Shown here piece by piece: positions 1-64,000 of a DNA stretch of 64,000 nucleotides (position 1 is its first letter; each line of letters begins with the position of its first letter). A program made the position numbers and the translations under genes. The notes under the pieces were generated by a model. That model worked only from the letters and a program-made list of their open reading frames with translations. It made no database searches and had not been told where the DNA came from. The DNA is from Tetracentron sinense (lineage: Eukaryota; Streptophyta; Magnoliopsida; Trochodendrales; Trochodendraceae): the NCBI GenBank assembly GCA_015143295.1, contig CM026559.1, positions 18,118,826 through 18,182,825 of the forward strand, given 5' to 3'.

Positions 1-343
1 GATTCTCTATCAGGTGTAGGGGGATCCGAAGATAAGGATCCCTTCTTTTAAAATCCCATGGGATGCCACACGGTACCCCATAATTATGATAGGATTAGGA
101 TTATATCCTATATCTTGGGAAAGGATATGATTAAACATCCTCATTTTTGAAAGGTATTAGGATTTCTCCCCAAAAAGAGAAATCTGCTACAAGAGTCCTA
201 AAAAAGAAGAGGATTCTCTTGAGCTTAGGAGTCTCCTTGATAAGGGAGACCCGTGAGCTGGCACCATATAAGAGGAGAGCCCCAGTTGACTTTTCTAAAA
301 TAAGGGATTCGAAGAGAGAGACCAAAAAGGACTCTCTCAAACC

Positions 344-350
344 TATAAAA
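344..350 (+). promoter_or_regulatory. TATA box of the Tat LTR
   Basis: TATAAAA followed by GGAGGG, placed mid-LTR as expected for the U3/R border. Transcription would start about 30 bases downstream. Confidence 0.7.
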
Positions 351-593
351 GGAGGGTTTCTCACAAGAAATCCACACGAAGCAATACAGAGAAAAATGAC
401 GAAAGAAGATAAACTTTCTTCTCCTTCAAACAACAGCAGCAAAAAGTAAGCCAAAGAAGAATACTCTTCGATATGGAGAACATCAGGTGAGCCTCATAAA
501 AATGGCCACCCCACTCTCTTTTCTTTTCTGCAAATGTAAAAGCCTCTATGAGGTATCTTGTAACGCCTACATAGGATCTGGGCAACTCCATTG

Positions 594-599
594 AATAAA
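594..599 (+). promoter_or_regulatory. Polyadenylation signal in the Tat LTR
   Basis: AATAAA within an AT-rich stretch, about 250 bp after the TATA box, which suits the end of R. Confidence 0.5.
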
Positions 600-795
600 T
601 AAATATTTTATTCAAATATTTGTTCTTCTTTTATTTCTTCTTCTTAATCAAAGGTTCTTCCCCAAACAAGGAAAATAATTTAACAGTCTGAGTTTACTCA
701 GATTGGAATGATAGTCTCCCACAACAAACAATAAACTCCATACAACAATGGAGGAAATTTGATAAGTAAAGACAAATTTTGCGCTTACAAATTAA

Positions 796-8693: not shown

Positions 8694-8698
8694 ATAAA
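8694..8698. repeat. Target site duplication ATAAA of the Tekay element (left copy)
   Basis: ATAAA lies directly before the LTR start TGTAGCACC. The same five bases follow the 3' LTR at 17918-17922, so the insertion boundaries are exact. Confidence 0.95.
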
Positions 8699-8910
8699 TG
8701 TAGCACCCCGGACTTTTTTCATCTTTAATGAATGGCACTCTCGTAGCTGATTGGTCGTTTCGTAGTGTAATTAATAAATAAGGGAGAAATCGGAAATTCC
8801 GAAATGTCAGAAATGTGCGTTTTCGAGAGATGAATCCAACGCAAGTTGAATCGTCAAAATCCGACGAGCGAGTCAAAAGATATGGTCAAAACAGTCCAGA
8901 CATATAGAGA

Positions 8911-9097
8911 ACTGATCGCTCGGTCCAGTCAGCGATCAATCGGTGCATAACCGATCGATCGGTAGTTATCGCACGGTCAAAAATTTTGTATGGGGAAATT
9001 TTCCAGAGAGTGAGTTTTTGACCGGTCGATCGGTCAATAACATCGATCGCTCGGTAGGCAACCGGTCGATCGGTCATAACCACCGATCGCTCGGTCT
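8911..9097 (+). repeat. Array of ACCGATCGATCGGT-type palindromes in the Tekay U3
   Basis: At least six inverted-repeat units around GATCGATC or GATCGCTC, spaced 20-45 bp apart. Equivalent blocks lie at 15926-16111 and 36297-36481 in the other copies and at 60909-61114 in a divergent family. Each lies upstream of the probable transcription start. Role unknown; a dimeric-factor site is one possibility. Confidence 0.8.
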
Positions 9098-10108
9098 TCG
9101 TGTTTTTCAGAATTTTCATTAAGGGCTTTTTCATCTTTTGGGGGTTAAACCCTTTTCCCTTAAGGCTTGCCCGAGCCTTAGGGCATCATTCACTATACTT
9201 AGAGAGATTTGGGAGATAAGAGAGAAGAGAAAAGGGTTTCCTAAACCTAGGTTGCTTTTGGAGAAGAAATCAAAGGGGTGAAGACCCTAGATCGTCCACA
9301 AGCACGTTTTCTTCAAGATTTCAACTCAAGCTCGGGTGGGGTGCATTCTCAAAGCTAGGGCAGCCCTCACTCACGTTTTTGAAAGGGATTTCTTCCCCAA
9401 CTCAAGCTTCTTTCAAGCAAAGGCTTCATCTTTCAAGTTGGAGCTTCAATCAAGGTCCCTACCAAGGATCAAGCCTTGATTCAAAGTTAGTACACCCTAC
9501 TAACTTTCCCTAGCAATAACCTAGGTTTTCTAGTGTAAATGGTGATTCTATATATATTGCTTTTCCTTCCCTATGCATTGTATTAACTCAACAAATATAA
9601 ACAAGATAAGGGAAATGGAATGAATGTGTGGATGGGAGATTGGATGTGGCGATTGGATGCCGAATGTGATGTATGATGTGTGGGTTGTGGATTGGAAAAT
9701 GGAGGATGGGCATAGTACAAATAACAAACTTACCATTGTGTGATTGAATGGAAAATATGCATTTAAAAGAAGGAAATAAAACTACTAAAATGTTGCACAC
9801 CGGATGTTTGATAATATGCCCAAACCAAGAATAAATGAAATCGATAAAGGAAATGGATGTAAGCGTTATGTAATTATTCTTGTAAATGATGACTTGACCA
9901 AATGCCATGTTGATCACCTAAAGGCTTACATGTTATACGAAAAAGGATTCCGAGACATGAGTTTTACCGAGGTTTTTGCATTCATACACCCATGTCAAGA
10001 TATGGCTATGTATCTTATGCTTTCACTATTGCTTTAAATTAATATCTTGTATTGCTCACTGTTGTTATGCTTTCGCTATTGTTATGGTTAGCTAGTAGTT
10101 TGTACTCG

Positions 10109-10127
10109 CTGAGTATTCCATGCTCAG
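10109..10127 (+). other. Conserved hairpin CTGAG...CTCAG in the Tekay LTR
   Basis: CTGAGTATTCCATGCTCAG, followed by TTTTATGTCGGCAGG. Counterparts are at 17470-17488, 37979-37997, 44080-44098 and 63317-63335 (minus). At 62436-62451 the hairpin has a different stem, GAGTAC/GTACTC, in the same place. Confidence 0.65.
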
Positions 10128-10278
10128 CCATACTTTTATGTCGGCAGGTACTGTGGATGTCCTCGACCCCGAGCCTTGGGTCGAGGAGGAGTATGTAGAG
10201 GAGAGGGAGCCACCTGTCCCATGGCAGTCTCTGGAGGATGGGGACTTGGATGTGTGGCCATACCTCGACTACTGTTGA
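10120..10278 (+). CDS. 52-codon acidic micro-ORF inside the Tekay 5' LTR
   Basis: Opens at an ATG in the conserved hairpin and includes MSAGT, PEPWVEEEYVEE and DVWPYLDYC before TGA. Copies at 17481-17639, 37990-38148 and 63166-63324 (minus) all have exactly 159 bases from ATG to TGA. A more divergent LTR (60423 family) keeps EPWVEETYIEE in the same place but without the ATG. Product unknown: small, acidic, Trp-containing, with no signal peptide. The sequence TTTTATGTCGGCAG inside it also looks like a 3' splice site, so it could be an exon. Translation is inferred, not shown. Confidence 0.45.
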   Translation: MLSHTFMSAGTVDVLDPEPWVEEEYVEEREPPVPWQSLEDGDLDVWPYLDYC

Positions 10279-10562
10279 GAGGAGAGGGTTAGAGAGTTCC
10301 TTTTTGTATTTTGATAGGTGGGCATGTCCACCTTTACTTCGATTGTATTTGGTATATGTTAACTTGGAATACTATTTGGACTTATAGAAGAAAAGAAAAA
10401 GTTGGCTTATGCTTCTACACTTATGTTTAGTTTCCGCGCTCTGATTATCATTGTATTATATTATGTTTAGCCTCTTGCATTACAGGATGGTTTGACAGGT
10501 ACACGTAGTCACCTCTAAAGTATCCCTTAACTCCTAGGGGGTATTTTGGGGCGCGACAGAGG

Positions 10563-10574
10563 TGGTATCAGAGC
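10563..10574 (+). other. Primer binding site, initiator tRNA-Met (Tekay)
   Basis: TGGTATCAGAGC, the standard complement to the 3' end of plant initiator tRNA-Met, starts four bases after the 5' LTR. Confidence 0.95.
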
Positions 10575-10899
10575 TCTAGGCATTAGAGTCCCTAGGGTCA
10601 CATAAGAACGATACCATGATTAAACTAGGTATTAGAATTACCTTAAAGAGTTGTATTCCAAGTATGGACTAACAAGTTAGTCCTAGTTGTTAAGGTAGGT
10701 TGAACTCCAACCGAACATAGAGTCCTACGCTCGGAACATGGATTGTATGTGATGCCATTGTTGTGTATACCATGTGTGCGTTAATAGTGTTATGCTTATT
10801 AAATATGCTTGATGAATATGTATTGAGTGAATTGCGAAAATTGTACTAAATGCATATCCAAGTTAGACTCATGTTGTATTGTCGTTCTCAGGAGAAATC
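10575..10899 (+). other. Tekay leader before gag
   Basis: Non-coding, no distinct structure seen. The first good ATG with gag-like coding downstream is at 10900. Confidence 0.6.
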
Positions 10900-12135
10900 A
10901 TGAGACGCAATACCCGGGGTCGCGGGTACAACGCGAGGGGCAATGGAGGTGATGCTCCATCGGGTGATGATCAACCCGGCTTTGCCCAAGCATTTGCATC
11001 CATAGCCGAGACTTTGGCTATGTTGGCGGCAAGGCAACCGGCCACCCCGCCTAATGCGGCACTTATACCGGCTCCTCCTAACCGAGCCCAAGCCGGGATA
11101 GAAGCTTTCCGGAGGATGAGGCCTCCAACTTTTTGTGGAAGCATTGATCCACTTGTCGTCGAGGGTTGGATTCGGCAACTTGAGAAGATATTCTCGGTAT
11201 TGGCACCTACGGAAGTAGAGAGGGTCACATGGGCTGCCTTTATGCTTGAAGGCGAGGCCGACCATTGGTGGAAGTCTGCACTTCGGACCCGAGAGTTGAC
11301 CCGACAAGGCCAAGAATGGACATGGGGAGAATTCTTGGACGTTTTCTACAAGAAGTACTTTCCGGTTGGGATGAAAGAAAAGAAAGAAATTGAATTTATT
11401 ACCTTGGAGCAAGGTAATATGTCTGTAGCGGCTTACGAAGCCAAGTTCTCAGAGCTATCTCGATTTGCTCCACACATGATAGCTACCGAGGCTATGAAGG
11501 CCCGAAAATTCGAGAGGGGGTTGAAGGCCTACCTCAAGGATCGTGTCTCAATGTTCCGACATGAGACATATTCAGAAGTTGTGGACAAGGCATTGTTGGC
11601 CGAGTCGAACTCCGAAGAGTTCTTTAAGAGAAGAGGAATGGAGAAAGGACAGTCAAGTAGTTCAGGGGAGAAAAGGGCAAGGACTAGCTTATATCAGTCC
11701 GCAGGGCCGGCTCAGTCACAGAGGATGTATTCGGCATCACAGGCCCCTCACTCTTGTGCTCCACCGGCTTTTCGCCCGGCTACCTCGTATGCTCCTCGCC
11801 CCGCAGTGACTCAGGCTACGGGTTATACTCCTCCCACTTATTCACATGATGTCTGCACCCTTTGTGGAAGGAGGCATCCAGCAGGAGAATGTCGGAAGGC
11901 TACAGGAGGCTATTTCATTGTGGCGACCAGGGCCACATGATTCGGGATTGTCCCCGACGTCGATTGCCAGCTCAGTCTTCGGGGAGCAGGCCCCCGATTA
12001 GGCAGACATCTCAGCCTAGCTCTTCTCAGGCTTCGAGGGCCTCATAGTCTACCCGGCCTCCTCGCCCAGCCACTCAGGGCCGAGTCTTCGCCCTATCGGA
12101 GAGAGACACACGTGCATCCGACGATGTCGTGCAAG
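10900..12135 (+). pseudogene. gag: gag of the Tekay element, frameshifted in the zinc-knuckle region
   Basis: ATG at 10900 is chosen because it opens the basic start MRRNTRGRGYNARG typical of this lineage; the frame extends a few codons upstream without an ATG. The capsid core reads FRRMRPPTFCG, then WTWGEFLDVFYKKYFP, then FSELSRFAPHM. A first Cys-rich motif, CTLCGRRHPAGEC, is intact. A frameshift near 11906-11915 moves the second knuckle, HCGDQGHMIRDC, to another frame, and its first Cys is lost. A TAG follows at 12045. The frame ends in DDVVQ just before a possible intron. Gag would package RNA and build the particle. Confidence 0.9.
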
Positions 12136-12283
12136 GTACGCAAAAAAATTCTAGAGTCTAAGTTGTGTAAATTTCTATGGTTTATTATGTGATTAATTAT
12201 ACTAAGGGTTACCTATGTATGATGCTTGTTGTTGTTTGAAATCTACTAATAGTAGCTACTTAATCGCACATGCGCTTTGTTAG
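12136..12283 (+). other. Possible 148-nt GT-AG intron between gag and protease (Tekay)
   Basis: The region has stops in the pol frame and is AT-rich. It is bounded by CAAG/GTACGC and TTTGTTAG/TGAAC. Removing it joins the codon phase exactly (G plus TG gives Val) and links DDVVQ to [10 protein letters not shown]. The alternative is an insertion or decay within a continuous frame, since related proteins usually have a few more residues (about GTLL) here. Confidence 0.4.
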
Positions 12284-13860
12284 TGAACGAATGTCTTGCC
12301 CGAGTGTTGATCGACACAGGATCCACTCACTCCTTTGTGTCACCTAGTTTCGCGAAGGGATTTTTGACTGAGGCTACTCCGTTAAAGCAGGAGTTGACCA
12401 TTGCAACTCCACTCGGCAAGACAGTTGATACGGACAAGATATTCAGGGATAGTGTGGTTCAAGTGGGGGAGAATGAACTGTTAGCCGATCTCATCGTCCT
12501 AGATTTTCAAGACTTGGATTTTGATGTCATCTTAGGGATGGATTGGTTGTCAAACCATCACGGGCATGTTGCGTGTTTTGAAAAGATGGTGAATTTCAAG
12601 CCCGAAGGGGGTAAGCCTTTTCACTTCCGGGGATTAAGAGAGAGGGACATTGCTCGCCTCGCAGCCTTGAGTATAGCAAACCCAGAAGCACAAAACTCCT
12701 CGGCCATTCCGGTCGTGAGTGAGTTCTTGGACGTGTTTCCGGAGGAACTTCCCGGGTTACCTCCGAATCGGGAGATTGAGTTCGCTATAGAGCTTATTCC
12801 GGGCACCGCTCCGATTTCAAGGGCACCGTATAGAATGGCCCCTATAGAGCTGGAAGAATTGAAGAAACAGATTGAGGAGTTACAACAACTTGGTTTCATC
12901 CAACCAAGTGTCTCACCGTGGGGAGCTCCAGTTCTCTTTGTAAAGAAGAAAGACGGGTCGATGAGAATGTGTATAGACTACCGTCAGTTGAACAAGGTAA
13001 CTATCAAGAATCGTTACCCCTTGCCAAGGATCGACGACTTGTTCGACCAACTAAAGGGAGCGAGATTCTTCTCCAAAATTGATCTTAGATCGGGGTATCA
13101 TCAATTAAGGATCAAGGCGGAAGACGTTCCGAAGACGGCTTTCAGGACTCGGTATGGGCATTACGAGTTCCTTGTCATGCCTTTTGGGCTGACGAATGCA
13201 CCGGCGACATTCATGGATTTGATGAACCGGGTGTTCCGATCTTACTTGGATCGATGCGTGATTGTATTCATTGATGACATTTTGGTGTATTCCCAGACAC
13301 GGGAAGATCACGCACGAGACCTCCGCCTTGCTCTGGAGATGTTGAGAGAGCATAGGCTATATGCCAAATTGAGTAAGTGCGAGTTCTGGTTAGAGAAGGT
13401 CGCATTTCTTGGACACGTGGTATTGGCCGAGGAAATTTCTGCAGATCCAGCCAAAGTTGAGGCCGTCATGAGTTGGGAGAGGCCCAAGAGCGTCACGGAG
13501 ATACGTAGTTTCCTCGGATTGGCAGGCTACTACCGGAGATTTGTGGAGGGATTCTCCAGTTTGGCTGCACCTCTCACCTACTTGACAAGGAAAAATGCAA
13601 AGTTCAGTTGGAGTGACCGATGTGAAGTAAGTTTCCAAGAGTTGAAGAAACGCCTCACCACAGCCCCTGTCCTTACGGTGCCATCTGGACCTTTTGGGTA
13701 TGAGGTGTATAGTGATGCCTCGCATGTTGGACTCGGGTGTGTCCTAATGCAACACAAGAAGGTCATTGCCTATGCATCAAGGCAGTTGAAAGAGCATGAA
13801 AAGAACTACCCCACTCACGACTTGGAGCTTGCGGCGATCGTGTTTGCACTTAAAATTTGA
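12284..13860 (+). pseudogene. pol: Tekay pol: protease, reverse transcriptase, start of RNase H
   Basis: The protease active site [11 protein letters not shown] is near 12307-12339. RT motifs in order: [50 protein letters not shown], then the catalytic [12 protein letters not shown] at 13261-13296 with both Asp present, then LGHVV and [11 protein letters not shown]. RNase H begins with [16 protein letters not shown]. The frame is open from 12277 to a TGA at 13858, where the usual residue is Trp (TGG to TGA). RT copies element RNA to cDNA in the cytoplasmic particle. Apart from that stop the domain looks intact. Confidence 0.95.
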
Positions 13861-14550
13861 CGACATTATCTGTACGGGGTGGAGTTCTATGTGTACACGG
13901 ACCACAAGAGCCTCAAGTATCTCTTTTCCCAAAAAGAGCTAAACTTACGACAACGACGTTGGATTGAGTTCTTAAAGGACTACGAGTGCACTATCCAGTA
14001 TCACCCGGGAAAAGCAAATGTGGTGGCAGACGCTCTGAGTAGGAAACCATCGGGGTTGTTGGCTCACATGTTGGTGCGGGAATGGAGATTGTTAGACGAT
14101 TTGGCAAATCTGGACATCAGTGTGAATGATTCTGTCCGCAGTCCTGTTTTGGCAAATGTTATTGTTCGGCCGTACCTTATAGATTTGATCCAGGAGTACC
14201 AGGCCACGGATGCTGACTTGTTGGCTTTTCGGGAGAAGGAAATTGCCAAGGGTAGTACGGACTTCTCTCTCACTAGCCGAGGTGCTATTACATTCAAGGG
14301 AAGGCTTTGTGTCCCAGTCAATGCAGACCTTCGGAGAGAGATCATGGATGAAGCTCACCGTTCAAAGTACACAGTGCATCCTGGGGGTACGAAGATGTAC
14401 CGGAACCTCAAGAGTCACTTTTGGTGGCGAAACATGAAGAGGGAGGTTGCGGAGTATGTGGCACGGTGTTTGGTGTGCCAACAGGTGAAAGCGGAGCATT
14501 TGAGACCGGCGGGTCTTTTGCAGTCTCTCCCTATTCCCGAGTGGAAATGA
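13861..14550 (+). pseudogene. pol: Tekay pol: end of RNase H and integrase zinc-binding domain
   Basis: Continues after the TGA. RNase H segment: [13 protein letters not shown] and [15 protein letters not shown], the latter with the last catalytic Asp. Then the HHCC zinc domain with [15 protein letters not shown] and [11 protein letters not shown]. It ends at a TGA (14548-14550) in EWK-stop-EHISMDF, again where Trp is expected. Both stops fit G-to-A change in TGG. Confidence 0.95.
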
Positions 14551-15162
14551 GAACATATCTCTATGGACTTTATCGTGGGATTGCCGAAGACGGTCAAGAA
14601 GACCGATGCTATATGGGTAGTTATTGATAGACTCACGAAGTCCGCTCATTTCTTACCGTACCGGACTACATTCAACTCCAATCAGTTAGCGGCGCTATAC
14701 ATCAAGGAAATAGTCCGATTGCATGGGGTGCCAGTGAGTATTGTGTCGGATAGAGACCCAAGATTCACATCCAGGTTCTGGAAAAGCTTTCAGAATGCTA
14801 TGGGTTCCCGACTAGACTTTAGCACGGCTTTCCACCCACAGACTGACGGGCAAACAGAGAGGGTGAATCAAGTGATAGAAGACATGCTCCGAGCTTGTAT
14901 GTTGGATTTTAAAGGAAGTTGGGAGGACCACCTACCTTTGGTGGAATTCGCCTACAATAACAGTTATCAAGCAAGCATACAAATGGCACCTTTTGAAGCC
15001 TTATATGGAAGAAGTTGTAGATCCCCCTTGTATTGGGATGAGGTTGGAGAAAGAAAGATTTTGGGCCCCGAGTTGATTGAACGAACCGCGGATAGGGTCA
15101 AGCTTATACGGGAGAGGTTGAAGACCGCACAGGACAGACAGAAAAGCTATGCTGACAACTGA
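14551..15162 (+). pseudogene. Tekay integrase catalytic core
   Basis: The D-D-35-E residues are in place: MDFIVGLP, VSDRDPRFTS, then DGQTERVNQVIED. NNSYQASIQMAPFEALYGR follows. Integrase inserts the cDNA into chromatin. The frame ends at TGA 15160, probably from CGA by C-to-T change. Confidence 0.95.
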
Positions 15163-15603
15163 ATGAGGAATCTTGAATTCTGAGTCAGTGACTTTGTGTT
15201 TATCAAGATTTCACCGACCAAGGGTGTTATGCGATTCAGGAAAAGAGGCAAGCTTAGCCCGAGATATGTGGGTCCGTTCGAGATCATTACTCGAGTCGGT
15301 GAAGTTGCTTACCGTGTTGCTTTGCCCGCTCACATGGCGGCGGTCCACAACGTGTTTCATATCTCCCAGCTTCGGAAGTACATCCCGGATCCTTCTCACG
15401 TCATCGAGCTTGATCCGGTTGAGATTCGAGAGGATCTCACTTTGGTTGAGAAGCCGGTTCATATTTTGGATCGAAGAGACCAAGTACTTCGCAACAAGAC
15501 TATTCCGCTAGTTCTCGTGCAATGGCAGCATCACGCTCGAGAAGAGGCTACATGGGAACTTGAGGCCGAAGTCAAGGCGAAGTACCCCGAGTTGTTTGAA
15601 TGA
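15163..15603 (+). pseudogene. Tekay integrase C-terminus with chromodomain-like segment
   Basis: After a further TGA at 15181 the frame reads FIKISPTKGVMRF, then GKLSPRYVGPFEI (GPY/F module), then VHNVFHISQLRKY, then the chromodomain-like VHILDRRDQVL and EEATWELEAEVKAKYPELF, ending at TGA 15601. Such segments guide chromoviruses to marked chromatin. It has the shortened form usual in Tekay. Confidence 0.9.
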
Positions 15604-15713
15604 TGTTGTGTATGACTTGTAATTTTGTTTCGAATTGTTATGCTAAGTTGTTTAAATTGTAAAGCACGCATTTTCCAAATTTCGAGGATGAAATTTTTGT
15701 AAGGGGGGGAGAA
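15604..15713 (+). other. Tekay 3' untranslated region and polypurine tract
   Basis: Ends in TTGTAAGGGGGGGAGAATG next to the 3' LTR. The purine run at 15700-15712 primes plus-strand synthesis. Confidence 0.9.
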
Positions 15714-17084
15714 TGTAGAACCCCGGACTTTTTTCATCTTTAATGAATGGCACTCTCGTAGCTAATTGGCCGTTTCGTAGTGTAATTAATAAATAAGGGA
15801 GAAATCGGAAATTCTGAAACACTAGAAATGTGCGTTTTCGAGAGACGAATCCAACGCAAGTTGAATCGTCAAAATCCGACGAGCGAGTCAAAAGATATGG
15901 TCAAAACAGTCCAGACATACAGAGAACCGATCGCTTGGTCCAGTCAGCGATCGATCGGTGCATAACCGATCAATCGGTAGTTATCACACGGTCAGAAATT
16001 TTGTATGGGGAAATTTTCCAGAGAGTGAGTTTTTGACCGGTCGATCGGTCAGTAACATCGATCGCTCGGTAGGCAACTGATCGATCGGTCATAACCACCG
16101 ATCGCTCGGTCTTCGTGTTTTTCAGAATTTTCATTAAGGGCTTTTTCGTCTTTTGGGGGTTAAACCCTTTCTCCTTAAGGCTTGCCCGAGCCTTAGGGCA
16201 TCATTCACTATACTTAGAGAGATTTGGGAGATAAGAGAGAAGAGAAAAGGGTTTCCTAAACCTAGGTTGCTTTTGGAGAAGAAATCAAAGGGGTGAAGAC
16301 CCTAGATCGTCCACAAGCACGTTTTCTTCAAGATTTCAACTCAAGCTCGGGTGGGGTGCATTCTCAAAGCTAGGGCAGCCCTCACTCACGTTTTTGAAAG
16401 GGATTTCTTCCCCAACTCAAGCTTCTTTCAAGCAAAGGCTTCATCTTTCAAGTTGGAGCTTCAATCAAGGTCCCTACCAAGGATCAAGCCTTGATTCAAA
16501 GTTAGTACACCCTACTAACTTTCCCTAGCAATAACCTAGGTTTTCTACTGTAAATGGTGATTCTATATATATTGCTTTTCCTTCCCTATGCATTGTATTA
16601 ACTCAACAAATATAAACAAGATAAGGGAAATGGAATGAATGTGTGGATGGGAGATTGGATGTGGCGATTGGATGCCGAATGTGATGTATGATGTGTGGGT
16701 TGTGGATTGGAAAATGGAGGATGGGCATAGTACAAATAACAAACTTACCATTGTGTGATTGAATGGAAAATATGGATTTAAAAGAAGGAAATAAAACTAC
16801 TAAAATGTTGCACACCGGATGTTTGATAATATGCCCAAACCAAGAATAAATGAAATTGATAAAGGAAATGGATGTAAGCGTTATGTAATTATTCTTGTAA
16901 ATGATGACTTGACCAAATGCCATGTTGATCACCTAAATGCTTACATGTTATACTATGAATTGAAATATGATGCGATATCCCTCTTGTTACACGTGTCCCC
17001 ATGATTGTCACTATTGGCACGCCCACGAGCACACATGCATGCATGAAACCGGGTTTTTCAAGATTGTATTATACATGTTGAATC

Positions 17085-17222
17085 AAGAAATGGAACAAGA
17101 ACATGACAAGGAGGTTGGTAGCCCAAGGAAGGGTGCTAGCCTCTGGCTCACAAGAGAAATGGAACAAGAACATGACAAGGAGGTTGGTAGCCTAAGGAAG
17201 GGTGCTAGCCTCTGGCTCACAA
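17085..17222 (+). repeat. 69-bp minisatellite in the Tekay LTR, two copies
   Basis: The unit starts GAAATGGAACAAGAACATG and contains GGTTGGTAGCCC facing GGGTGCTAGCC, which can fold. The solo LTR at 36085 has four units, one with a 9-base insertion, and the 5' LTR has none. The unit is 23 codons long and stays open (EQEHDKEVGSPRKGASLWL). Confidence 0.85.
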
Positions 17223-17480
17223 GTATACAAGTCAAGAACAAATCAAGACATGAAATACAAGACAAGACACGACACACATACACGATTTGACCGAGACACG
17301 AAAAAGGTTTCCGAGACATGAGTTTTACCGAGGTTTTTGCATTCATACACGCATGTCAAGATATGGCTATGTATCTTATGCTTTCACTATTGCTTTAAAT
17401 TAATATTTTGTATTGCTCACTATTGTTATGCTTTCGCTATTGTTATGGTTAGCTAGTAGTTTGTACTCGCTGAGTATTCC

Positions 17481-17639
17481 ATGCTCAGCCGTACTTTTAT
17501 GTCGGCAGGTACTGTGGATGTCCTCGACCCCGATCCTTGGGTCGAGGAGGAGTATGTAGAGGAGAGGGAGCCACCTGTCCCATGGCAGTCTCTGGAGGAT
17601 GGGGACTTGGATGTGTGGCCATACCTCGACTACTGTTGA
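17481..17639 (+). CDS. 52-codon micro-ORF in the Tekay 3' LTR
   Basis: Same length and frame as the copy at 10120, with one visible Glu-to-Asp difference (PDPWVEEEYVEE). As a 3' LTR copy it would lie at the end of the transcript. Confidence 0.4.
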   Translation: MLSRTFMSAGTVDVLDPDPWVEEEYVEEREPPVPWQSLEDGDLDVWPYLDYC

Positions 17640-17922
17640 GAGGAGAGGGTTAGAGAGTTCCTTTTTGTATTTTGATAGGTGGGCATGTCCACCTTTACTT
17701 GGATTGTATTTGGTATATGTTAACTTGGAATACTATTTGGACTTATAGAAGAAAAGAAAAAGTTGGCTTATGCTTCTGCACTTATGTTTAGTTTCCGCGC
17801 TCTGATTATCATTGTATTATATTATGTTTAGCCTCTTGCATTACAGGATGGTTTGACAGGTACACGTAGTCACCTCTAAAGTACCCTTAACTCCTAGGGG
17901 TATTTTGGGGCGCGACAATAAA

Positions 17923-39245: not shown

Positions 39246-40617
39246 TGATCGCCAATAAAATAAACCTCGTAGTAGCTACAATTCCGAAGAATAGTGAATA
39301 GTATGGGGTGTCGAACCACAGAGGATTGCGCTGGTTTCGTTGCCCTTTTTTTAAGATTATTTCTAAGTCAATGGGTAACAAGATTGATTGATTTGATTGA
39401 TTTTAACCTAAGAGTAGAAATTAAACTAACAGATTCTATTTTAACTAATTAAATTAAGAGTTTTTGATGATATATCAGTGAGAGAAGATCTAGGGTGTTC
39501 GAATCCACCACTAGCTTCATAACTGGTCCCTAATGCATTTATTCAAGTTCATCACAATATAAACAATAGGGATGAGAGTGACTACAAGACTCCACTCATC
39601 CATCTAGAATGATTCAGGGGATTAGACCCTAGGCATATCCTATCTTCAGTTAGCATGAGTGATACACACTAAACTAGGGTTGTGAAATCACTCGTCTTCC
39701 CTTAGCATAAAATATCCTATGATTTAATTCCTCAACAGTAATACCATTGCATAAAATCCACATTAATAATCACAAAAAATTAAGATGAATGATTTCAATC
39801 TCAATATAATAAAACCTAAGATAAAGATAGAATTACACTGAAATCGAATATAATCAATAAACTCTGGTTATGAATAAACCTCTTATTATGTAATCATTAT
39901 TTACAATTGAATAAACTAAAATAAAGTACAAAGAGACACAGTTACTTGGCTAGGGTTTCATCTAAACCCTAAAAAAAGGAATTAGTTCATGCTGAGAGTA
40001 AGGGACACCACTTTTGACGAAGAACATAAAGAACGCGAATGATCCATCTTCCAACTTTCACAGATCTCCTTAGCTTTCTCTCCTTCAATTCTCCAAAATT
40101 TAGAACCTTTTGCATGGAAGGAGGCTTTCATTTTTATAGAGAGAGAGTCTCAATGAAGTATATCTTTAGAAACATCCAAAACGAGCTCCAAAATCAGATT
40201 TTCGCACTTTCTAATACACCCAAAACGATGACCTCCGATCGATCGGCCAAAAGGGTGCCGATTGATTGGTGGGTTTGGAATTTGACCAACATTCCTTGAT
40301 AGAAGTTGTAGAACTTTTTGAGACGGTCGATTTGATATATTATGGGCCAAAATTGGAGCTACGGTCCCAGAGTTATGCCCCACACACCGAACAAGGGTTG
40401 TTTTGCATTTCCAACTTCTCTTTAGCTCGGATCTTTGCTCGGTAGCGATTCACAAGAAACTTTAAAGCTTGTAAATTATCATTTTAGTCTTTTTTTCCTC
40501 GCATGAACCTAAAAATAATAAACACACCCAAGTAAAGTATTGTAGTGGATAAATGGCTCAAAGGGATTAACAAATGAAGTTTAAGGTGCATAAATGTGTA
40601 ACAATTAACACCGATCA
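39246..40617 (-). repeat. 5' LTR of Athila
   Basis: 1372 bp. Minus strand starts TGATCGGTGTTAATTG and ends GGCGATCA. TATAAAAA at 40131-40138. CGATCGATCGG palindromes at 40226-40262. The U3 block shared with SIRE LTRs is at 40300-40380. Confidence 0.92.
40131..40138 (-). promoter_or_regulatory. TATA box, Athila 5' LTR
   Basis: TATAAAAA on the minus strand, about 90 bp after the palindromic motif. Confidence 0.6.
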
Positions 40618-43338: not shown

Positions 43339-43779
43339 AGATGTTAGTGTACTAAGGCCAGGTACGGACACTAACATCTATTCTGAAGCAAGTATGAGAG
43401 GATGCTGGTATACTATGACCAGGTACGGGTACTAGCATCTGTCTCCAAGTAAAAAGATAAGTGTGAAAGGATACTAGTGTACTAAGACCAGGTATGGGCA
43501 CTAGTATCTGTTTCCAATGATTAAAAAATTATGAAAGTATGCTAGTGTACTAAGACCAGGTACGGGCACAGCATATGTTTCCAAGACAAGTATGAAAGGG
43601 TGTTAATGTACTAAGACCAGGTATGGGCATTAACATCTGTTTCCAACAAGCATGAGAGGATACTAGTATACTAAGACTAGGTATGAGTATTAGTATCTAT
43701 CTATTAGTAAGAATAAAGGAATATAAAAGGATGTTTAGTGTACTAAGACCAAGTACGGGCACTATCATCTGTTTCCATG
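43339..43779 (+). repeat. Array of about seven 60-bp covarying hairpins in the solo LTR
   Basis: Each unit has a 6-12 bp stem around a loop near TACTAAGACCAGGTACGGG. Stems include AGATGTTAGTGT/ACACTAACATCT, GATACTAGTG/CACTAGTATC and TGTTAATG/CATTAACA. The loop is conserved while both arms change together. Confidence 0.75.
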
Positions 43780-46520: not shown

Positions 46521-48692
46521 TGTTAGATATATATGCCCACGAAAGCCATTCCAGAATTGTATTTATCTATTTAATCAATAAATACATAATTTTACATTCA
46601 CATATTGTCTTCTACATTGGGTAACATATCAAAAGTATCTCATTGGATGAGACTACTTTGTCCCTTAGGTAACATTGTAGGAAAACCATCCAATTAGTTG
46701 ATAACTGATTGCTAAGGAGATATGGTTTTTCCGGTTCCTTGTAGACCTAAAATTGTTCTAAGTTAATCAGGATACATCTGGACAATCTATTCCTAATAAC
46801 TTACACATTGTTAGTTCCATATGATAGAGTGATGAATCTCAATCACTGAGAGAAGGGTCTCTTGACTAAGATGTGGATATAAGTAAGAAGTACTTATATT
46901 GCAACTAGATTGCTTAGTGGATACCCTTAGAAATATATTGTCTTTATATTTAGGGTAGTCCATTTGACAGATTGTCCTTAACCTGAGAGGCCGACATCTT
47001 CTCTAGTATTTGCCTATGTAGCTTTGATGTAGCCAATCGTTAATGTCCAACACACCGGACTAAACACGGGTTTGTTGGGTTATGCACATTGTATTGGAAG
47101 AAGTGTGTGTACGCTCAATAAGGATTCCATTACTCTTACAAAGTAAATAATATTGAGTTGATACTTGTCAAAACCGGACTTGAAAAACCCAGCGCTGGTA
47201 TTTATCGATGAAATGGTTTTATCGAGGAATTTATTTTCTGTATAATAGAAATGTTATTATTATTATTATTTCTTTTAAAGAATTTCTAAAAATGTTTTGA
47301 AAGTTCAAGTTTGACTAAAAGTATAAAAGAGAATGGGTTCTCAATATGAGCCAGGGATTAAAGACAGTATTGGATATTGTCCCATAAGCTTATAACAATA
47401 TTGAAAGTGAAGGGACACATCTGTAAACAAATCTTGAGATAGAAATACCTGTAATTAATTCTCTGTTTTCTGGAAGTTAATCATAATGTGTTAATGGACA
47501 TTATTGTAATTGGTGGAAGTCTAGGGATATAGATAAAATTCTATAATCCTAATGGAGTGTAGGAAAGGTGTTTCCTAGTAACAATGCTTTAACTAAAAGG
47601 TTGAGTACTTGGTCCCACAACTGGAAATAGGAGATCCTTTAGATCTCACACACAAGGACTTTCTTAAAGTATTTAATTTAATTATTAATTAAATTAATTT
47701 ATTTTTCTAAGTAATCACTATATGGTATAGTGAAGCTCTATAAGGTGGAGTCACATTGGATGTGAAAAAACCAAATGGGTAGGACGCATTGGGGATTATT
47801 TTAAAAGAATAATTGAAGTGACCAAAAAAGGGTTTAATACCCTAGGGGGCACGTGGGGTGGGACGCCCACTTCATGAGGAAATAATAATTGTTATTATTT
47901 TAATTAGTTTCTAATAACTAATATCCTTATCGGATAAGGTTAGTTAGTTAGTTAGAGTTAGTTACTAATTAAAGATTCCTTGTAGGACAAGGATTCTATT
48001 AGTTTCTTACTAATCAAGGAATCCTAATTGGATTAGGATAAGGATAAGGTTAGTTGGTTACTAATAAATAAGGTTAGTATCTATCTTGATTAATCCTAAT
48101 TAATTAGGAGATATCAAGAAAGGAAACAATTGAGGGAATCCTAATTGAATTAGGATAAGGATAAAATCCAAGATTGATCTTTATATAAGGAGTGGACGTC
48201 CAAGGTGTTGGACACAATATAATTTCTAGATTTTTGGAAATCTTCTCCTCCCTCAATCTCATGCCCCTCTCTCTCTTCTCCCAAGGTGTATGGTCACACC
48301 TCCCCTCCCCTTTCTTCTGTTGTTTTTCTAGTTTGGAAATAGAAGAAGAATATTAAGGATCATGTTAATCAAGAAAGGTTCTTGATCAATTAAGATTGGA
48401 TCTTTATTCAAGATCTTAGAACTGGAAATTTGGAAGGACCATTAGCTTCCATTAGAGAAAGCTTTAAAGAAAAAGAAGGTCCATGTGGATTGCGAAGGAG
48501 ACTTGACAATTGTGAAGTTTTGCCGGTCTAGCATTTTATCATGGATTTGACTTAACAATTTCAAAGTCGCAAAGGTGATTGTGATTTATAACTTCATTGA
48601 ATTAAAATCAATTAGAATCTTAGTCAGATCTTAGGATTCAATGTATGCCTCCAAGAACTGTTTTTCTAAAATTAAAAAGAGGCATACTTTCA
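46521..48692 (+). repeat. 5' LTR of the copia-type element
   Basis: 2172 bp. Inverted repeats at 47933-48160 (for example ATCCTTATCGGATAAGG and AATCCTAATTGGATTAGGAT) lie just upstream of TATATAA at 48182. Boundaries come from TG at 46521 and CA next to the primer site. Confidence 0.75.
48182..48188 (+). promoter_or_regulatory. TATA box of the copia-type LTR
   Basis: TATATAA followed by GGAGTGGACG. Confidence 0.65.
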
Positions 48693-50619: not shown

Positions 50620-50750
50620 CTACAAAAAACAATAATATACAATTTATTAATGTTTTTTCCAAATGAGAAAATTTGAGAATGTAATAATTAATAAATATGC
50701 AATGAAACAAACTCCTCTCAGAATATTAATAGTTTTCGGTATTACATTGG

Positions 50751-52905: not shown

Positions 52906-52914
52906 GGTTCTTCC

Positions 52915-54205: not shown

Positions 54206-54390
54206 AATGGCGGTAATAACATTACCGCAGTTTCCAATTTTGGAAAAAGCTACAGTAACCCAGACCAATAGTGACTAGGTTAGGCCTATTTAACAAAAAT
54301 TAGGTAATGACGGTAATGTTATTACCGTCATTGTTTGTTTGGCCTAAACCAGGAATGACGGCACTGGAATTACCGTCATTTCTGGAGTTT
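54206..54390 (+). repeat. AATGRCGGTAAT inverted repeats upstream of the Ogre TATA box
   Basis: Three units, the clearest at 54305-54332 with perfect 12-bp arms, 100-290 bp before the TATA box. Further units lie in the later LTR. Confidence 0.75.
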
Positions 54391-55204: not shown

Positions 55205-56604
55205 TGTAATTCCATATTTTAGTGTTGGCTTATTTCGGTGTCAAAATAGTGAGTCTAGTGTGTCTTGTGTCATTGCCTTCAAGCGTCCACGACAAGTGAA
55301 GATGAAGACTGAAGAAGATCAATTGAAGACATTTCGATCATATCCTTCATTTCACTCATGGGATGGTAAGTGACCTAGATACCATGCTACCTTAGGTGGA
55401 AATTGATTTAGAATAAATTTATGAACCATAGGTGACTAGATATGTAGCATTGAAAGTGTTAGAGGATCTTACAAATCGAGGTTCCTTTTAAGAGGCATAT
55501 CTCTCAAACCGTAGCTCTAATTTTGCTCCATAATATATCAAATCGATCGCATCAAAAAGATCTACAACTTTTGTGAATCAAGAAGGAGCAAATTCCAAGT
55601 TTTTAGGAGTCGGTCGATTGAATATTTATTGGGTCGAGCTAGTCCTCAACAGAAAATGTATGGGAAAAAGAGCCAGAGACCATGAAATATTTGAGTCGAC
55701 CCTTTGGACCCAAAGGGACAGTTGGGTTAACCCAACTCCCATTTTAGGTCGACCCAAACCCAATTGGGTCCACCCAATGCTTAAGGAAACTTCTAAAATC
55801 GTTTTTGCAACTTCTAAAAGCTTGGTTTTGGTTTCTTTATCTAATAGAACCCTTCTAGTCCGTGAATGTGGACTTTAGGAGAGTGTTGAAAGGGGATTGG
55901 GCTATCTCTAGAGTTCATAGAAACTTTGAATTTATTTTCTCTCATTCCGTTGATTAGTTTCTCTTCCATCCTAGAGTTTGTAAGTCATTGTTCCATTCTT
56001 GCTTACTTGGACTTTTCCATTGATGGAATCCATGTACGATTTGATTTTAATCAAACCATCAACCCGTTCTGGAAAGAACAAATTGACCGGAGTGTTTTGA
56101 AGCCTTTATGAAGGAGATTGATACGAGAAGGATTGTGGTTGTGTGATTTGGTCGATGGAATTTGAAGCCGTCATTGACGGAGATCGATCGTGGAGATCAT
56201 GGTTGTCGAGACACAAGAGAAGAACATGCTACTGTAGTAGATTGCGAGTTTTGCAAGATCGTGATTACTTACTGAGGCGTGGAGGACTAACCATGGATTG
56301 AGGAAGTCGAGTCCTATTTGGGTGAGGTTTGAGTCTGTAAGTATCTGATACTTTGTCTTAGTGGATTCTCATTGCTAGATTAGGTCCCGTGGTTTTTCCC
56401 AAAAGGGTTTCCACGTAAAAATTGCTTGTGTTGTGATTTGCTTGTTTCCCTTATTCCGCACTTTAAGTTCATCATCTCTTAGTTAATAACTAAATTGTTA
56501 AATATTAAAAAGGGTAGATAGACTTTGTAGAGAGACCTAGCCACCACTTTGAATTTGTGAGTTTTCAACTCAAACATTAGATTTGAGGTTCACTAGATTT
56601 TTCA
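55205..56604 (+). mobile_element. Solo LTR, SIRE type, in the Ogre LTR
   Basis: 1400 bp, same family as the LTR at 25961, start TGTAATTCCAT, end GATTTTTCA, exact AACAG duplication (55200-55204 and 56605-56609). U3 block at 55493-55573; GTCGACC motifs at 55683-55770. Confidence 0.93.
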
Positions 56605-60225: not shown

Positions 60226-60422
60226 GATCGAGTCTTTTTTTCTTCTTGAGTCACATAGTCCTATATCTCACTAATATGCATCAATGAAAAAACCTTTCTA
60301 GCATCTTCTTTTTTGCACATCATGCATATTTATATTTAGTTGTTGCATTTTTTTTTAGTTGCATGAGCCGACCCATGACTCGCTCTATAACTGCAATTCT
60401 CGTAGTAGCAGCAACCTTAGAC

Positions 60423-62868
60423 TGTAGAGACCCGAATCTTTTTCATGTTTTTATTGCATTGCATTAGGGGTATTATAGTCCTTGTGATATTTTAATGTTT
60501 ATTGTATTGTATCTCTAATGGGTGTAGTGTGATTAAGAGTTCAGGAATGTCATATCACACTATAAACTTTAGGAAGTTCTAGTTTTGGCACCGTTTATTG
60601 GAATTGAGTGATTCTTGAACCATTAGAAAGGTATTGGAACCATCTTCGAGGTTCATGTTTAATGTTTTTCCTTATTTTTAGTCTAAGCTAAGTTAAAAAT
60701 GGGTTTTCTGAGGTTTTGTCTGATGGAATTATAGATCAGTCAACTTTGGGGATAATTTGGTTCATAAATAAAGGGGAATTTGGACATTCTAAAATACCAA
60801 AAATGTTCGTTTTCAAAAGACGAATCCAACACAAGTTGAATCGTCAAAATCCGACGAACGAGTCAAAAGTTATGGCCAAAACAGTAAAATTAGTCGAAAT
60901 CTGCAAAACACCGATCGCTCGGTCAGAAATAGCGATCGATCGGTCCAAAACCGATCGATCAGTATCTATCGATTGGTCCAAAATTTTGTATGGGGAAAAT
61001 TTCCAGAGAGTGCTTTTTTGACCGATCGCCCTGTCAAGAGCACCGATCGATCGGTTGAGAACCGATCGATCGGTCATAACCACCGATCGATCGGTCATAA
61101 CCACCGATCGCTTGGTCCTTCGTGTTTTTGCAGAATTTTAGTAAGGGCTTTTTAGTCTTTTGGTTCTCAGACCTTGAGGCTATAAATAGGGATCCTAGTT
61201 CGGGGTATTAGAATACTCTACCTATTTCTAACCTAATTTGGCAAAAAGGGAGAGAAACCCTAGGGTTTTGAGAGAGGGCTTTCTTGGGGAAGAAGGAGAT
61301 AGCTTGGATAGCACAAGGAGAGCTTGGAAAGCTTCCCCAAATCTCCTCGGGAGCGTTTTGAATCTAAGGGAAGGATTCCTAAGGTCGATATACTATCCTA
61401 ATCAACTCTATTTTAATGTTTTGTGAATATTAATTTGATAGGAATGATAGAATAGAGATTAGATGCATTTTTCTCAAATTTTATATGAAGTAAGCTAATT
61501 ATGGATGGAAATGTGGATTACAATGTGGATGGAATGTATGGAGGATGGGATTAATATGTGGATTTGAATGGTGAATTGATTGTATGGATGGATCATAGTT
61601 TGATGAATGCTTGAAAATGTAGAATGACAATGGATTCATATTATGCGTGCTCAAGGTGTTTGTGAAAATGCTTGAGAGGATAAATGCTATTATACTCTTA
61701 TGAAATGGTGGTAAATTGATTATGAATTGCGATATGAATTATGATAAGATATGTATATGTGAATTGTTTGTTAAGTATGTATAATTACTTGCATGGAAAT
61801 TGATAGTCGGGAAGGTAAGAACTTAGAGGAACATCTCTCAAACTGGGAATTCTCTAACTATTTGGTATGGGACAGTATAGTGGAGTTTCCATGGTGGGAG
61901 ATCGGAATCTAAGCAATTACCAAATCGAATGTTAATTTCGACACTTAAGCACATATGCACGTGTATGTTAAGATAAGAGTCTCACAAGTCACACATGTGG
62001 ACCACAAGCATGAGCATGGCATACGTATGACATTCTGAATAAGCATAAGCATGGCATGGTCCGTATCCGCCAAGAATGGCATGTCAATTACATTTGATTC
62101 TTAGGCATGGTTCGTATCCGCCAAGAACGGCATGTCAACCATTTGATTCTTAGACATGGTCCATATCCGCCAAGAACGGCATGTCACATCATTGTATGAT
62201 CTGAATAAGTGCATAAGCATAAGCATCTCACAAGCACGTAGTCTCATAAGCATAAGCAGTTCATAAGTGTATTGTCTTTTATGTCCAAGATTCTCACAAG
62301 TACACGAGTCAAGGTGATGATATGATGTACATGCGCATACGTTCTTCCGTACTCTGATTATGTTATCATGCTATTGGATATGTTTCTAACTAAATGCAGG
62401 TGTATTATTATTGTTGGTTGGATTTTATATACACCGAGTACTTTTGTACTCAGCTGGACTTTTGTCTTGGCAGGTTTAGAGCAGGAGTACACGGTGGAGC
62501 CGTGGGTTGAGGAAACTTACATTGAGGAATGAGGAGAAGGTGAGCCCATCGAGGAAGGAGCCGGAGTCTTGGGTGGCTACACCTCTTAGTTTATGTTTCG
62601 TTGGTTGAGAGAGTTTTGTATTAGACTGATGATGTTGCTCAGTAGATTTTTTTATAGTTGTGTATTTCATACTTTTTGGTTTATAGTGAGTTGTATATGT
62701 TGACCATAGACTTGTGCAGGTTGGTTATAGTTTATATATCGGAATTTTATTACTCTCATTTTTGGAGACTCGTGTAGTAAGCCTTGAATGTATGGTCTTT
62801 AAGCAGGTTTAGTAATGTGACGATTCCAAAGTTCTATTTTAGCCTTGTGGGATTTTGGGGTCGTTACA
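60423..62868 (+). mobile_element. Solo LTR, Tekay-like family C
   Basis: 2446 bp, TGTAGAGACCC to GGGGTCGTTACA, exact TAGAC duplication (60418-60422 and 62869-62873). TTGAATCGTCAAAATCCGAC block at 60838-60875, ACCGATCGATCGGT palindromes at 60909-61114, TATAAATA at 61181, a repeated CCGCCAAGAACGGCATGTCA segment (62070-62190), hairpin GAGTAC-TTTT-GTACTC (62436-62451), then an EPWVEETYIEE-coding segment ending TGA near 62531. Confidence 0.92.
61181..61188 (+). promoter_or_regulatory. TATA box of the solo LTR at 60423
   Basis: TATAAATA followed by GGGATCC, about 70 bp after the palindromic block. Confidence 0.75.
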
Positions 62869-62881
62869 TAGACGCAGTTCT

Positions 62882-64000
62882 TGTCATGTCCCAAAATACC
62901 CCCTAAGAGTTAAGAGATACTTTAGAGGTGATAATTCATAACTGTCAAACCATCCTATAATGAAAAAGACTAACATGATATAATGACAATAATAATCAGA
63001 GTGCGGAAGCTAAACATGAGTGCGGAAGCGTGAACTAACTTTTTCTTTTCTATATAAGGTGGTCTATATTCCAAGTGAACATATACAAAACATATCAAGT
63101 CAAAGGTGGACATGCCCAGCTATCAAAATATCAAAATACAAAAAGAATTATTGAGCCCACTATGCTCAACAGTAATCTAAGTAAGGCCAAACGTCGTGGT
63201 CCCAATCCTCTTACGACTGTATCGGGATAGGAGGCTCTCTCTCCTCAACATACTGTTCCTCAACCCAAGGCTCAGGGTTGAGGGCTTCCTCGGTACCTGC
63301 CGACATAAAAGTACGACTGAGCATGGAATACTCAGCGAGTACAAGCTACTAACTAATCATAGCAATAACAATCACACAAAGGCAACGAGATATAATTCAT
63401 CATTCCAATTTGAAGCAATATTAGTAGCATATAACAAATAGCATTGAAGTAAAGCAATGTAATGATCTTGACATGCTTGAATGAATGCGAAAACCCCGGT
63501 AAAATCATACTTTAAAAATCATGTCTTGTTCTTAAAAATAGTTTTTCGTGTTTCTTTCAAAACTTGCTCGTCATGTTTGAAAACTTGTTTCTTGTCTTGG
63601 TCTTATTCGTGAGACTCACACATGTTTGTCTTGTCTTGCTTGTTCTTGCCATATTCTTGACTTAACTTGCTTGTATACTTGTGAGTCAAAGGTTAGTACC
63701 CTTGAAGCGACTTGTGAGCCAGAAATGTAAATTCCCTTCAGCAAAATATATATATAGAAAAGGTACACCAACCTCCTTGTATTATTTTCTTATGAGCCAG
63801 GTATGACATATCTTGCGATATGCCCTACCCTTGACCGGCCCAATGTCCAGCTTTATCAACTTGCTTCTTTTCCTTGTGAGCCAAGTATGACATATCCTAG
63901 GGATATGCCCTACCCTTGACCGGTCCGATGTCCGGCTTTATCATTCGTTTTGTGAATCACAATTCTTGTTCTTGTTTGTTTCCTTCAATTACTTGTACTT
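62882..64000 (-). mobile_element. Tekay-family LTR, minus strand, cut by the window end
   Basis: Starts on the plus strand TGTCATGTCCCAAAATACC, the reverse of the GGGGCGCGACA end with CG-to-TG/CA changes. It follows the 8699 family in order: minus-strand hairpin at 63317-63335, micro-ORF at 63166-63324, then tandem segments at 63690-63960 with GACATATC/GATATGCC hairpins that resemble the 41554 family. Whether it is solo or part of a full element cannot be seen. Confidence 0.88.
63166..63324 (-). CDS. 52-codon micro-ORF copy, diverged, with one internal stop
   Basis: ATG and TGA sit exactly 159 bases apart, as in the other copies. Reads MSAGTEEALNPEPWVEEQYV, then EEREPPIPIQS, a TAA, then DVWPYLDYC. 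By hand count against 17481-17639 it has about 15 synonymous and 11 non-synonymous codon differences, the TAA included. Confidence 0.35.

Follow-up and report, generated by a model that had tools for sequence, protein, structure and literature searches.

The closest described counterpart of the sequences analyzed here is the repeated motif (RM) of Sireviruses, palindromic arrays upstream of the TATA box that were described as Sirevirus-specific (Bousios et al. 2010; PMC2829016). The RM was reported in 13 Sireviruses, whereas the classic Ty1-copia elements used for comparison lacked it, and it comprises at least eight palindromic boxes per element, counting the long terminal repeat (LTR) plus the internal region, clustered upstream of the TATA box (PMC2829016). 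The cis-regions of transposable elements frequently consist of repeat arrays, at times palindromic, and in maize one palindrome is found in both Copia and Helitron regions (PMC10760457). We analyzed a stretch of 64,000 nucleotides from Tetracentron sinense (assembly GCA_015143295.1, contig CM026559.1, positions 18,118,826 to 18,182,825; hereafter, the window), together with copies of its LTRs in the 1.16-Gb assembly (1,479 contigs), over which all genome counts were made. We observed palindromic arrays with a common spacing, a linker within them, their position upstream of the TATA box, and one cassette common to a gypsy group (labelled Tekay) and a copia family of Sirevirus type (represented by locus L076).

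The RM is described as palindromic boxes present in many copies shortly before the TATA box, within the upper half of the LTR, which differ from element to element and mostly have a CGG-CCG core (PMC2829016). The arrays resemble it, and the Vitis RM, CGGTCGACCG, is present in the arrays of SIRE-labelled LTRs here. The CGG-CCG core occurs in CGGTCGACCG variants of some SIRE copies and is missing from the main SIRE unit, TTGGGTCGACCCAA. For the Sirevirus genus, the core of an observation made in a first-pass annotation of the window, that almost every LTR family has a private palindrome just upstream of its TATA box, is already covered by the earlier work (PMC2829016). Unlike the RM, however, the arrays here occur also in a Ty3-gypsy group, gypsy and copia have one cassette in common, and neither the spacing rule nor the linker was found in the accessible description of the RM (PMC2829016). 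The palindrome clusters of maize Sireviruses form a similar palindrome-rich LTR cis-region, proposed to be regulatory and a target of small RNAs, but as cited they concern one genus in one species, with no gypsy exchange described (Bousios et al. 2016, via PMC5311732 and PMC10760457). The accessible account of structured regions in maize reports a motif shared in Helitron annotations and no gypsy–copia cassette, linker, or spacing (PMC10760457). The CpG island of Del (Tekay) LTRs, a CG-rich and variable stretch, likewise lies in the 5′ half of the LTR; in the text available it is not described as palindromic units, and the eudicot group has no such island (Cruz et al. 2014; PMC4029996). The U3 (unique 3′) part of LTRs is less conserved than R and U5, and no such shared module is named in the accessible portion of that source (PMC3601003). 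Among titles and abstract openings, in partial coverage of the literature, we found none reporting a U3 cassette common to gypsy and copia. What appears new here is a copia family, young as judged from its copies, with an array-plus-linker cassette of ∼190 bp that is 78% identical to the cassette of gypsy Tekay.

A Tekay-type cassette in a copia family

The gypsy side of the comparison is provided by the Tekay-labelled LTRs of the window, a lineage name taken from the first-pass annotation, and by the related B group, labelled by LTR similarity to Tekay only.

8697..17917, forward strand: Tekay-labelled A element, Ty3-gypsy, with LTRs at 8697-10558 and 15712-17917 (repeats 97.9-98.4% identical)
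8911..9101, forward strand: Tekay A cassette, copy 1 (palindrome array plus linker), 74% over 192 bp to the L076 copia cassette
15926..16116, forward strand: Tekay A cassette, copy 2
36297..36486, forward strand: Tekay A cassette in a third LTR (36085-38428)
60910..61119, forward strand: Tekay C cassette, with ACCGATCGATCGGT at 61042, 61061, and 61082 and a TATA box at 61181; 77% over 187 bp to L076
42140..42361, forward strand: B-group array with linker, with GAAGGATCGATCCTTC at 42318 and a TATA box at 42431

The A element is Ty3-gypsy by its domain order: Retrotrans_gag, RVP_2, RVT_1, RNaseH, and Integrase_H2C2 (70 bits), then rve (25.9 bits, cut-off 32.6) and, following an SH3_Tf2-1 domain (91.6 bits), Chromo (23.8 bits, just under the cut-off of 25.1). 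An iMet-type primer-binding site (PBS) lies at position 10563.

L076, one of the 20 loci fetched with the Tekay palindrome, contains the array and the linker but lacks the rest of a Tekay LTR. Its coding region carries, in copia order and all on the same strand, gag_pre-integrs, rve, and RVT_2 (E = 1.2e-55), and RVT_2 together with an integrase upstream of the reverse transcriptase identifies it as Ty1-copia. The mate LTR is 96.9% identical. The LTR start was taken, by likeness to SIRE, as the TG that follows the polypurine tract AAAGGGGAAGAT; AGGGGAAG (one base off) stands 10 bp before this inferred start, and there is one earlier copy of AGGGGGAG, the tract type of the SIRE elements. A 551-bp piece of L076 was found at at least 40 places, itself included, at 98-100% identity over 549-551 bp (40 of 3,595 candidates scored). 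So many near-identical copies indicate a young amplified family and hardly an accident of assembly.

Over the cassette, L076 matched Tekay C in 150 of 193 alignment columns (78%) and Tekay A in 144/191, close to the 157/190 between Tekay C and A, and the likeness includes the linker and a CTATCGACTGGTC piece just before it. Outside the cassette, neither flank of L076 rose above shuffles when compared with Tekay, the scores being 25 and 26 and the highest values among 40 shuffles 30 and 32. Against SIRE, the upstream flank scored 39 (shuffles 33) and the downstream flank 35 (shuffles 36), while a SIRE profile gave 13.6 bits on the same downstream flank vs. 5.3 in 200 shuffles. In a tree of 40 of the 46 cassette sequences (L064, L077, and L080 were excluded beforehand, and L046, L050, and L071 had no linker match), the copia cassette fell, on a long branch, inside a 20-member Tekay clade with an ultrafast bootstrap value of 100 (next node 56). 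This nesting favors, without proving, the direction from gypsy to copia.

We consider it likely that plant LTR retrotransposons can exchange their LTR control regions even over their deepest split, a ∼190-bp cassette having passed from gypsy to copia and the recipient having then multiplied; older exchanges, involving a linker common to SIRE and Tekay and a module common to SIRE and Athila (both below), are less sure. Template switching and recombination of plant LTR elements offer a possible route for moving a piece of U3, although the recombination described for ONSEN occurred within one family and the partners here belong to different superfamilies (PMC12786077). If U3 cassettes do pass between gypsy and copia, an element could gain an expression program in one step instead of evolving it, and LTR and coding phylogenies may disagree. 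A shared cassette would also indicate a host factor serving both superfamilies and would widen the palindrome story of Sireviruses to gypsy elements.

Palindromic arrays, linker, and position

The palindromes belong to arrays of degenerate units of ∼14 bp, mostly 19–22 bp apart, that flank a linker. The single palindromes noted for each LTR in the first-pass annotation are real sites, lying where it had placed them or a few bases off, but most are members of such arrays. The Tekay set of 22 LTRs (18 genome copies, including L076, plus 4 from the window) held 149 units with at least 11/14 matches. Thirty-six of these were perfect, and 21/22 LTRs had at least one perfect unit, as expected from selection of the copies by the exact palindrome. 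The genome loci came from 20 places among the matches listed, all on one contig (C1); L077 and L080, which have no Tekay scaffold, were removed before counting, and L076 was kept. Twenty-three SIRE LTRs (20 genome copies picked from 40 scored places among 2,318 candidates, plus 3 from the window) held 109 units with at least 10/14 matches, 2-6 per LTR with a mean of 4.7 (internal copies excluded from the count); 21 units were perfect, in 15/23 LTRs.

Gaps of less than 50 bp between neighbors measured 19-22 bp in 102/105 cases in the Tekay set, in 57/62 in SIRE, and in 69/84 among the B cores (20/41 places used), a count that omits 16 overlapping 4-bp offsets; B cores were mostly spaced by 19-21 bp. 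The solo LTR S28 agreed in 4/5 short gaps (19, 21, 22, and 22 bp; the other was 49 bp). The commonest long gap was 71 bp in Tekay, 61-62 bp in SIRE, 60 bp in B, and 62 bp in S28. In Tekay-set LTRs with a CTATAAATAG box (n = 11), some or all of four units were present at ∼77, 98, 118, and 138 bp before the box.

The idea of a private, family-specific palindrome fails for Tekay, where A and C carry the identical ACCGATCGATCGGT and the copia family carries it too; it holds poorly for SIRE-type arrays, which combine two palindrome types 20-22 bp apart, and for B, whose relatives bear different arms on one scaffold. ACCGATCGATCGGT occurs 30,033 times in the genome (reversed control, 3), and the two SIRE types, TTGGGTCGACCCAA and CAGGGTCGACCCTG, occur 1,230 and 1,967 times (controls, 4 and 1). 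Half-and-half hybrids of the SIRE types number 468 + 427 = 895, so that the two types exceed hybrids with an odds ratio of 12 (hybrids split evenly). The B palindrome AAGGATCGATCCTT is rare, with 6 genome copies vs. 5 of its reversed control, and its genomic enrichment was rejected. High counts reflect LTR copy number and are by themselves uninformative on function; combined with the spacing rule, though, the 30,033 exact copies of one site would make a candidate factor easy to seek.

At position 9156, Tekay A reads CCTTAAGGC, in place of the CTATAAATAG of Tekay C (61181), although A is young by LTR identity (98%). The segment 62878-63508, adjoining the Tekay C LTR, resembles the 3′ half of the LTR of Tekay A in opposite orientation (76%), and L080:207-300 holds an array of ACCGATCGATCGGT-like units outside a recognized Tekay scaffold.

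The linker lies in the long gap, as established by inspection for Tekay, B, and SIRE. It has the form GTATGGG, an A-rich stretch, and CCAGAGAG in both gypsy and Sirevirus (copia) LTRs; in the long gaps it reads TTTGTATGGGG, an A/T-rich stretch, and CCAGAGAG.

60975..61023, forward strand: Tekay C linker between the half-arrays; 26.1 bits with an anchored SIRE-only profile and 18.4 bits unanchored (shuffle maxima 10.6 and 11.4)

The anchored profile was fixed on GTATGGG, and the search was hence repeated unanchored; one SIRE locus, L041, yielded no anchored linker. The unanchored profile, derived from 20 SIRE copies that all lie outside the window, detected the SIRE copies of the window, S28, and each of the four Tekay linkers, the latter at 18.4-20.5 bits against a shuffle maximum of 11.4 (1.28 Mb) and a reversed-profile maximum of 6.3. 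B was missing among its 16 listed hits, and the anchored SIRE profile gave the B linker 8.2 bits, under shuffles. Conversely, the best match of a Tekay profile (13 copies) was the linker, in the same orientation, in 18/20 SIRE loci, and 11/20 exceeded the best of 400 shuffled loci (at most 13.2 vs. 5.0 bits). The likeness between SIRE and Tekay linkers spans ∼31 bp. Tekay and B also have an upstream module in common (88.9% over 54 bp). That the Tekay upstream module is an inverted form of the SIRE/Athila module was rejected (best cross match 3.7 bits, under shuffles).

The SIRE and Athila LTRs of the window, with the SIRE-like solos, are arranged as follows.

26395..26535, forward strand: SIRE copy 1 array, with a 20-bp perfect palindrome at 26471-26490 and a weak TATA box, CTATTTATTGG, at 26609
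31921..32092, forward strand: SIRE copy 2 array, with GGGTCGACCC at 31950, TTGGGTCGACCCAA at 32053, and TATA-like TCTATTTA at 32165
55600..55785, forward strand: SIRE copy 3 array, with AGTTGGGTTAACCCAACT at 55720 and TATA-like TTTATCTAATAG at 55836
30990..31509, forward strand: four AGGGGGAG polypurine tracts, at 30990, 31018, 31185, and 31490
28490..28700, reverse strand: S28 solo array, spacings 19, 62, 21, 22, 22, and 49; TATA box 28420-28427; SIRE profile 23.7 bits
24360..24500, reverse strand: S24 solo array of GAATTC..GACGAA units; TATA box 24270-24276
55456..55609, forward strand: U3 module alpha of SIRE copy 3 (other SIRE copies at 26225-26378 and 31761-31914)
40270..40417, reverse strand: U3 module alpha of the Athila LTR (second copy at 23264-23411); palindrome 40235-40246; TATA box 40132-40138

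The SIRE label was given because of the clustered AGGGGGAG tracts, a type of polypurine tract that is a hallmark of Sireviruses (PMC2829016), and the LTR of the window SIRE begins with TG at 31500, 10 bp after the start of the last tract. A fifth AGGGGGAG tract, followed by GAGTAGAGTGTTGG, stands at 35313, away from the SIRE LTRs. Stop-free open reading frames (ORFs) scanned near the window SIRE copies contained no RVT_2, and pieces beside two genome SIRE loci (L028 and L033) gave only one sub-threshold chromodomain match, beside L028. The Athila label rests on an Athila-type PBS, TGGCGCCGTTGTCGGGG, at 39234 (beside 39245, reverse strand), next to the LTR. Upstream of the arrays, Athila and SIRE LTRs have a module of ∼100 bp in common (79% over 105 bp; local score 101 vs. 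a maximum of 28 in 100 shuffles); the high scores of Athila copies in a search with the module profile reflect Athila rows in that profile. The Athila palindrome noted in the first-pass annotation is present, but perfect in only one of the two window copies.

To place the palindromes relative to TATA-like boxes (344, 42431, 48182, 54494, and 61181 on the forward strand; 24270, 28421, and 40132 on the reverse strand), we counted perfect palindromes with arms of at least 6 nt (total length at least 12 bp) within the 300-bp stretch upstream of the box. Across 11 LTR groups, the family-averaged sum was 13.2 vs. 1.36 ± 1.1 in shuffled sequence, with a top value of 5.0 among 200 shuffles. Density was 0.71 per 100 bp in the −200 to −100 bin and 0.62 in the −100 to 0 bin (8/11 and 7/11 groups), compared with 0.00-0.20 across the −800 to −200 bins and 0.00-0.18 across the 0 to +800 bins; the groups were chosen by a reader who had already noticed the palindromes, and the profile is therefore not blind, nor are the groups fully independent (Tekay A and C; SIRE1-2 and SIRE3). 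Five of the 11 groups reached p < 0.05 alone: Tekay C, Tekay A, SIRE1-2, SIRE3, and S24. S28 (0.06), B (0.08), Tat (0.12), Athila (0.15), and the copia-type LTR (0.205) did not, and Ogre scored zero (p = 1.0) because its arms are parted by 3 bases. With arms of at least 7 nt and one mismatch allowed, S28 (0.03) and B (0.04) passed; Tat did so at arms of at least 5 nt (0.045). At arms of at least 7 nt, the whole window contained 19 perfect palindromes vs. 4.5 ± 1.5 in 20 Markov shuffles, and 200 kb of random genome contained 93 vs. 18.1 expected, AT microsatellites being a large part. Structural LTR discovery in that 200 kb was discarded as a blind test for yielding too few pairs. Of the first-pass observation, then, the pooled excess upstream of the TATA box, whose absence was to have refuted it, stands, as does the statement that gypsy and copia LTRs agree in the place and inverted form of the sites, an agreement that extends even to one sequence cassette; "almost every family" does not carry over to groups taken singly, and the motifs are not private.

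Symmetry, folding, and competing explanations

We favor, on balance, a reading in which the U3 region carries an enhancer cassette of dyad units and a linker upstream of the TATA box, which a dimeric host factor would bind and which could pass between superfamilies. The cassette would consist of two half-arrays of ∼14-bp dyad-symmetric units on either side of the conserved linker. A spacing of 19–22 bp, about two helical turns, would place neighboring units on the same face of the helix, where the factor could bind cooperatively and thereby determine the timing of LTR transcription; another factor may bind the linker. Cassettes would occasionally move between co-expressed elements by gene conversion or template switching and later multiply along with the recipient, and changes in the array would retarget an element to other factors. 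Decay of CpG in the SIRE arrays (below) suggests methylation by the host. The annotation's suggestion of sites for dimeric factors is compatible with the spacing; its family-specificity is only partly borne out, as described above. Arrays of short, partly symmetric enhancer sites are familiar from U3 in the BII boxes of Tnt1 and the ∼21-bp repeats of HTLV-1, a functional analogy only.

54206..54380, forward strand: three Ogre-labelled dyads of 27 nt (12-nt arms, 3-nt center), at 54206, 54306, and 54354; TATA box at 54494

Symmetry seems to be favored in places and is not absolute. In the three Ogre dyads (21 copies: 20 of 47 places plus the window copy), we counted 24 double-sided changes vs. 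10.1 ± 3.8 in shuffles, with 0/500 as high and slid controls at 1-8; 14/24 come from one homologous pair in two dyads. The Ogre arms covary, with G-U among the pairs. SIRE units showed 15 symmetric double changes over seven pairs in the 109 units, and the excess of the two SIRE arm types over hybrids would fit upkeep of the dyad. Among 25 Tekay/B LTRs, both arms of the first proximal unit change in step (AAG..CTT, ACC..GGT, ACA..TGT), probably through one or a few clade-level events.

Several results weigh against the enhancer reading. Copying of whole units would explain the SIRE arm-type excess too, and tandem duplication could yield equal spacing within a family. Tekay/B double-sided cells numbered 15, and 13 in a slid control (+1), so nearly as high that covariation at homologous sites was rejected as strong proof; pairs changed on both sides numbered 2 vs. 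2.8 in shuffles. In the Tekay set, a C at position 9 breaks the dyad in 71/149 units and symmetric double changes occurred in 0/149, on which strict upkeep of the dyad was rejected: strict symmetry appears unneeded in Tekay units. CpG positions of Tekay units showed no raised change (2-5%). As for the linker, an anchored Tekay/B profile gave the window SIRE linkers only 2.0-2.7 bits, under shuffles (11.0), and with the GTATGGG anchor masked the flanks reached 8.3-10.9 bits vs. 8.5, weak on their own.

The main rival is that the palindromes act as RNA: the transcribed U3 of the 3′ LTR would fold into hairpins that yield or attract small RNAs, making the arrays hot spots of silencing rather than enhancers. 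We regard this as unlikely, even though several observations speak for it. U3 strands folded better than dinucleotide shuffles in 10/11 groups (z from −2.0 to −7.5), on a baseline of 70 grid windows with a mean z of −1.17 (sd 1.63), 5/70 below −3.9 and 24/70 at −2 or below, so that the S24 fold (−2.0) is not special. The Ogre arms covary in a manner that includes G-U pairs, and maize Sirevirus palindromes have been reported as small-RNA hot spots (PMC5311732, PMC10760457). In SIRE units, the central CpG was changed in 17% of units on each side, 28/36 changes being C-to-T or G-to-A, compared with 2-8% at positions 4-6 and 9-11 and 20-28% at the outer positions 1, 3, 12, and 14; this decay is mostly by transitions. 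Loop-less palindromes, however, make poor short hairpins, Athila showed no excess fold (z 0.77), and the two-helical-turn spacing and the fixed asymmetric Tekay units are left unexplained. Both roles, enhancer and source or target of small RNAs, could hold at once, and L076 and Tekay would provide a natural swap for telling an enhancer from a silencing target.

It is less probable again that the arrays have no present function and are slippage-born satellites hitch-hiking on successful LTRs, their counts mirroring copy number only. Unit copying would account for the equal spacing within families and for linked arms, and the lack of symmetric double changes in Tekay units and the rarity of the B palindrome agree with it, but it does not predict the same position in unrelated LTRs, a similar spacing and a like linker in gypsy and copia, the compensation in Ogre, or the spread of a family carrying a foreign cassette. 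Somewhat more doubtful still is that a DNA-binding silencer or anti-silencer, encoded by the host or by the element, targets the arrays, with an arms race driving palindrome change. The VANC proteins of VANDAL elements are an analogy for such an anti-silencer, and arms that change on a constant scaffold in B relatives and the two palindrome types within SIRE-type arrays would fit; the same palindrome in both superfamilies would not. Convergence of gypsy and copia on one host factor, in place of transfer, is the least probable: both superfamilies would need the same sites, and the SIRE–Tekay linker likeness alone is short and missed by some profiles, but the L076–Tekay match extends over ∼190 bp, including the linker and CTATCGACTGGTC, at near the identity of Tekay A and C.

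Other repeats of the window

The remaining LTRs with inverted sites are as follows.

21..64, forward strand: Tat-labelled inverted sites; TATA box at 344; within shuffle range at arms of at least 6 nt
47923..48109, forward strand: copia-type palindromes at 47923-47939 and 48094-48109; TATA box at 48182; within shuffle range alone

The Tat sites are present, yet about 280-320 bp from the TATA box and not just upstream of it, as first described. ORFs scanned near the Ogre-, Tat-, copia-type-, and B-labelled LTRs gave no lineage-informative Pfam match. In the Tat-labelled element, tandem repeats of 24 bp with many CCATGG palindromes (CCGTCCATGGACGG) lie at 1807-2478 and overlap a 200-aa open frame without a Pfam match. 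A tandem satellite of ∼179-180 bp occupies 50698-52969, with 11 copies in register with a 300-nt reference, and diverged tandem repeats lie at 43325-43805, with five copies 60-129 bp apart.

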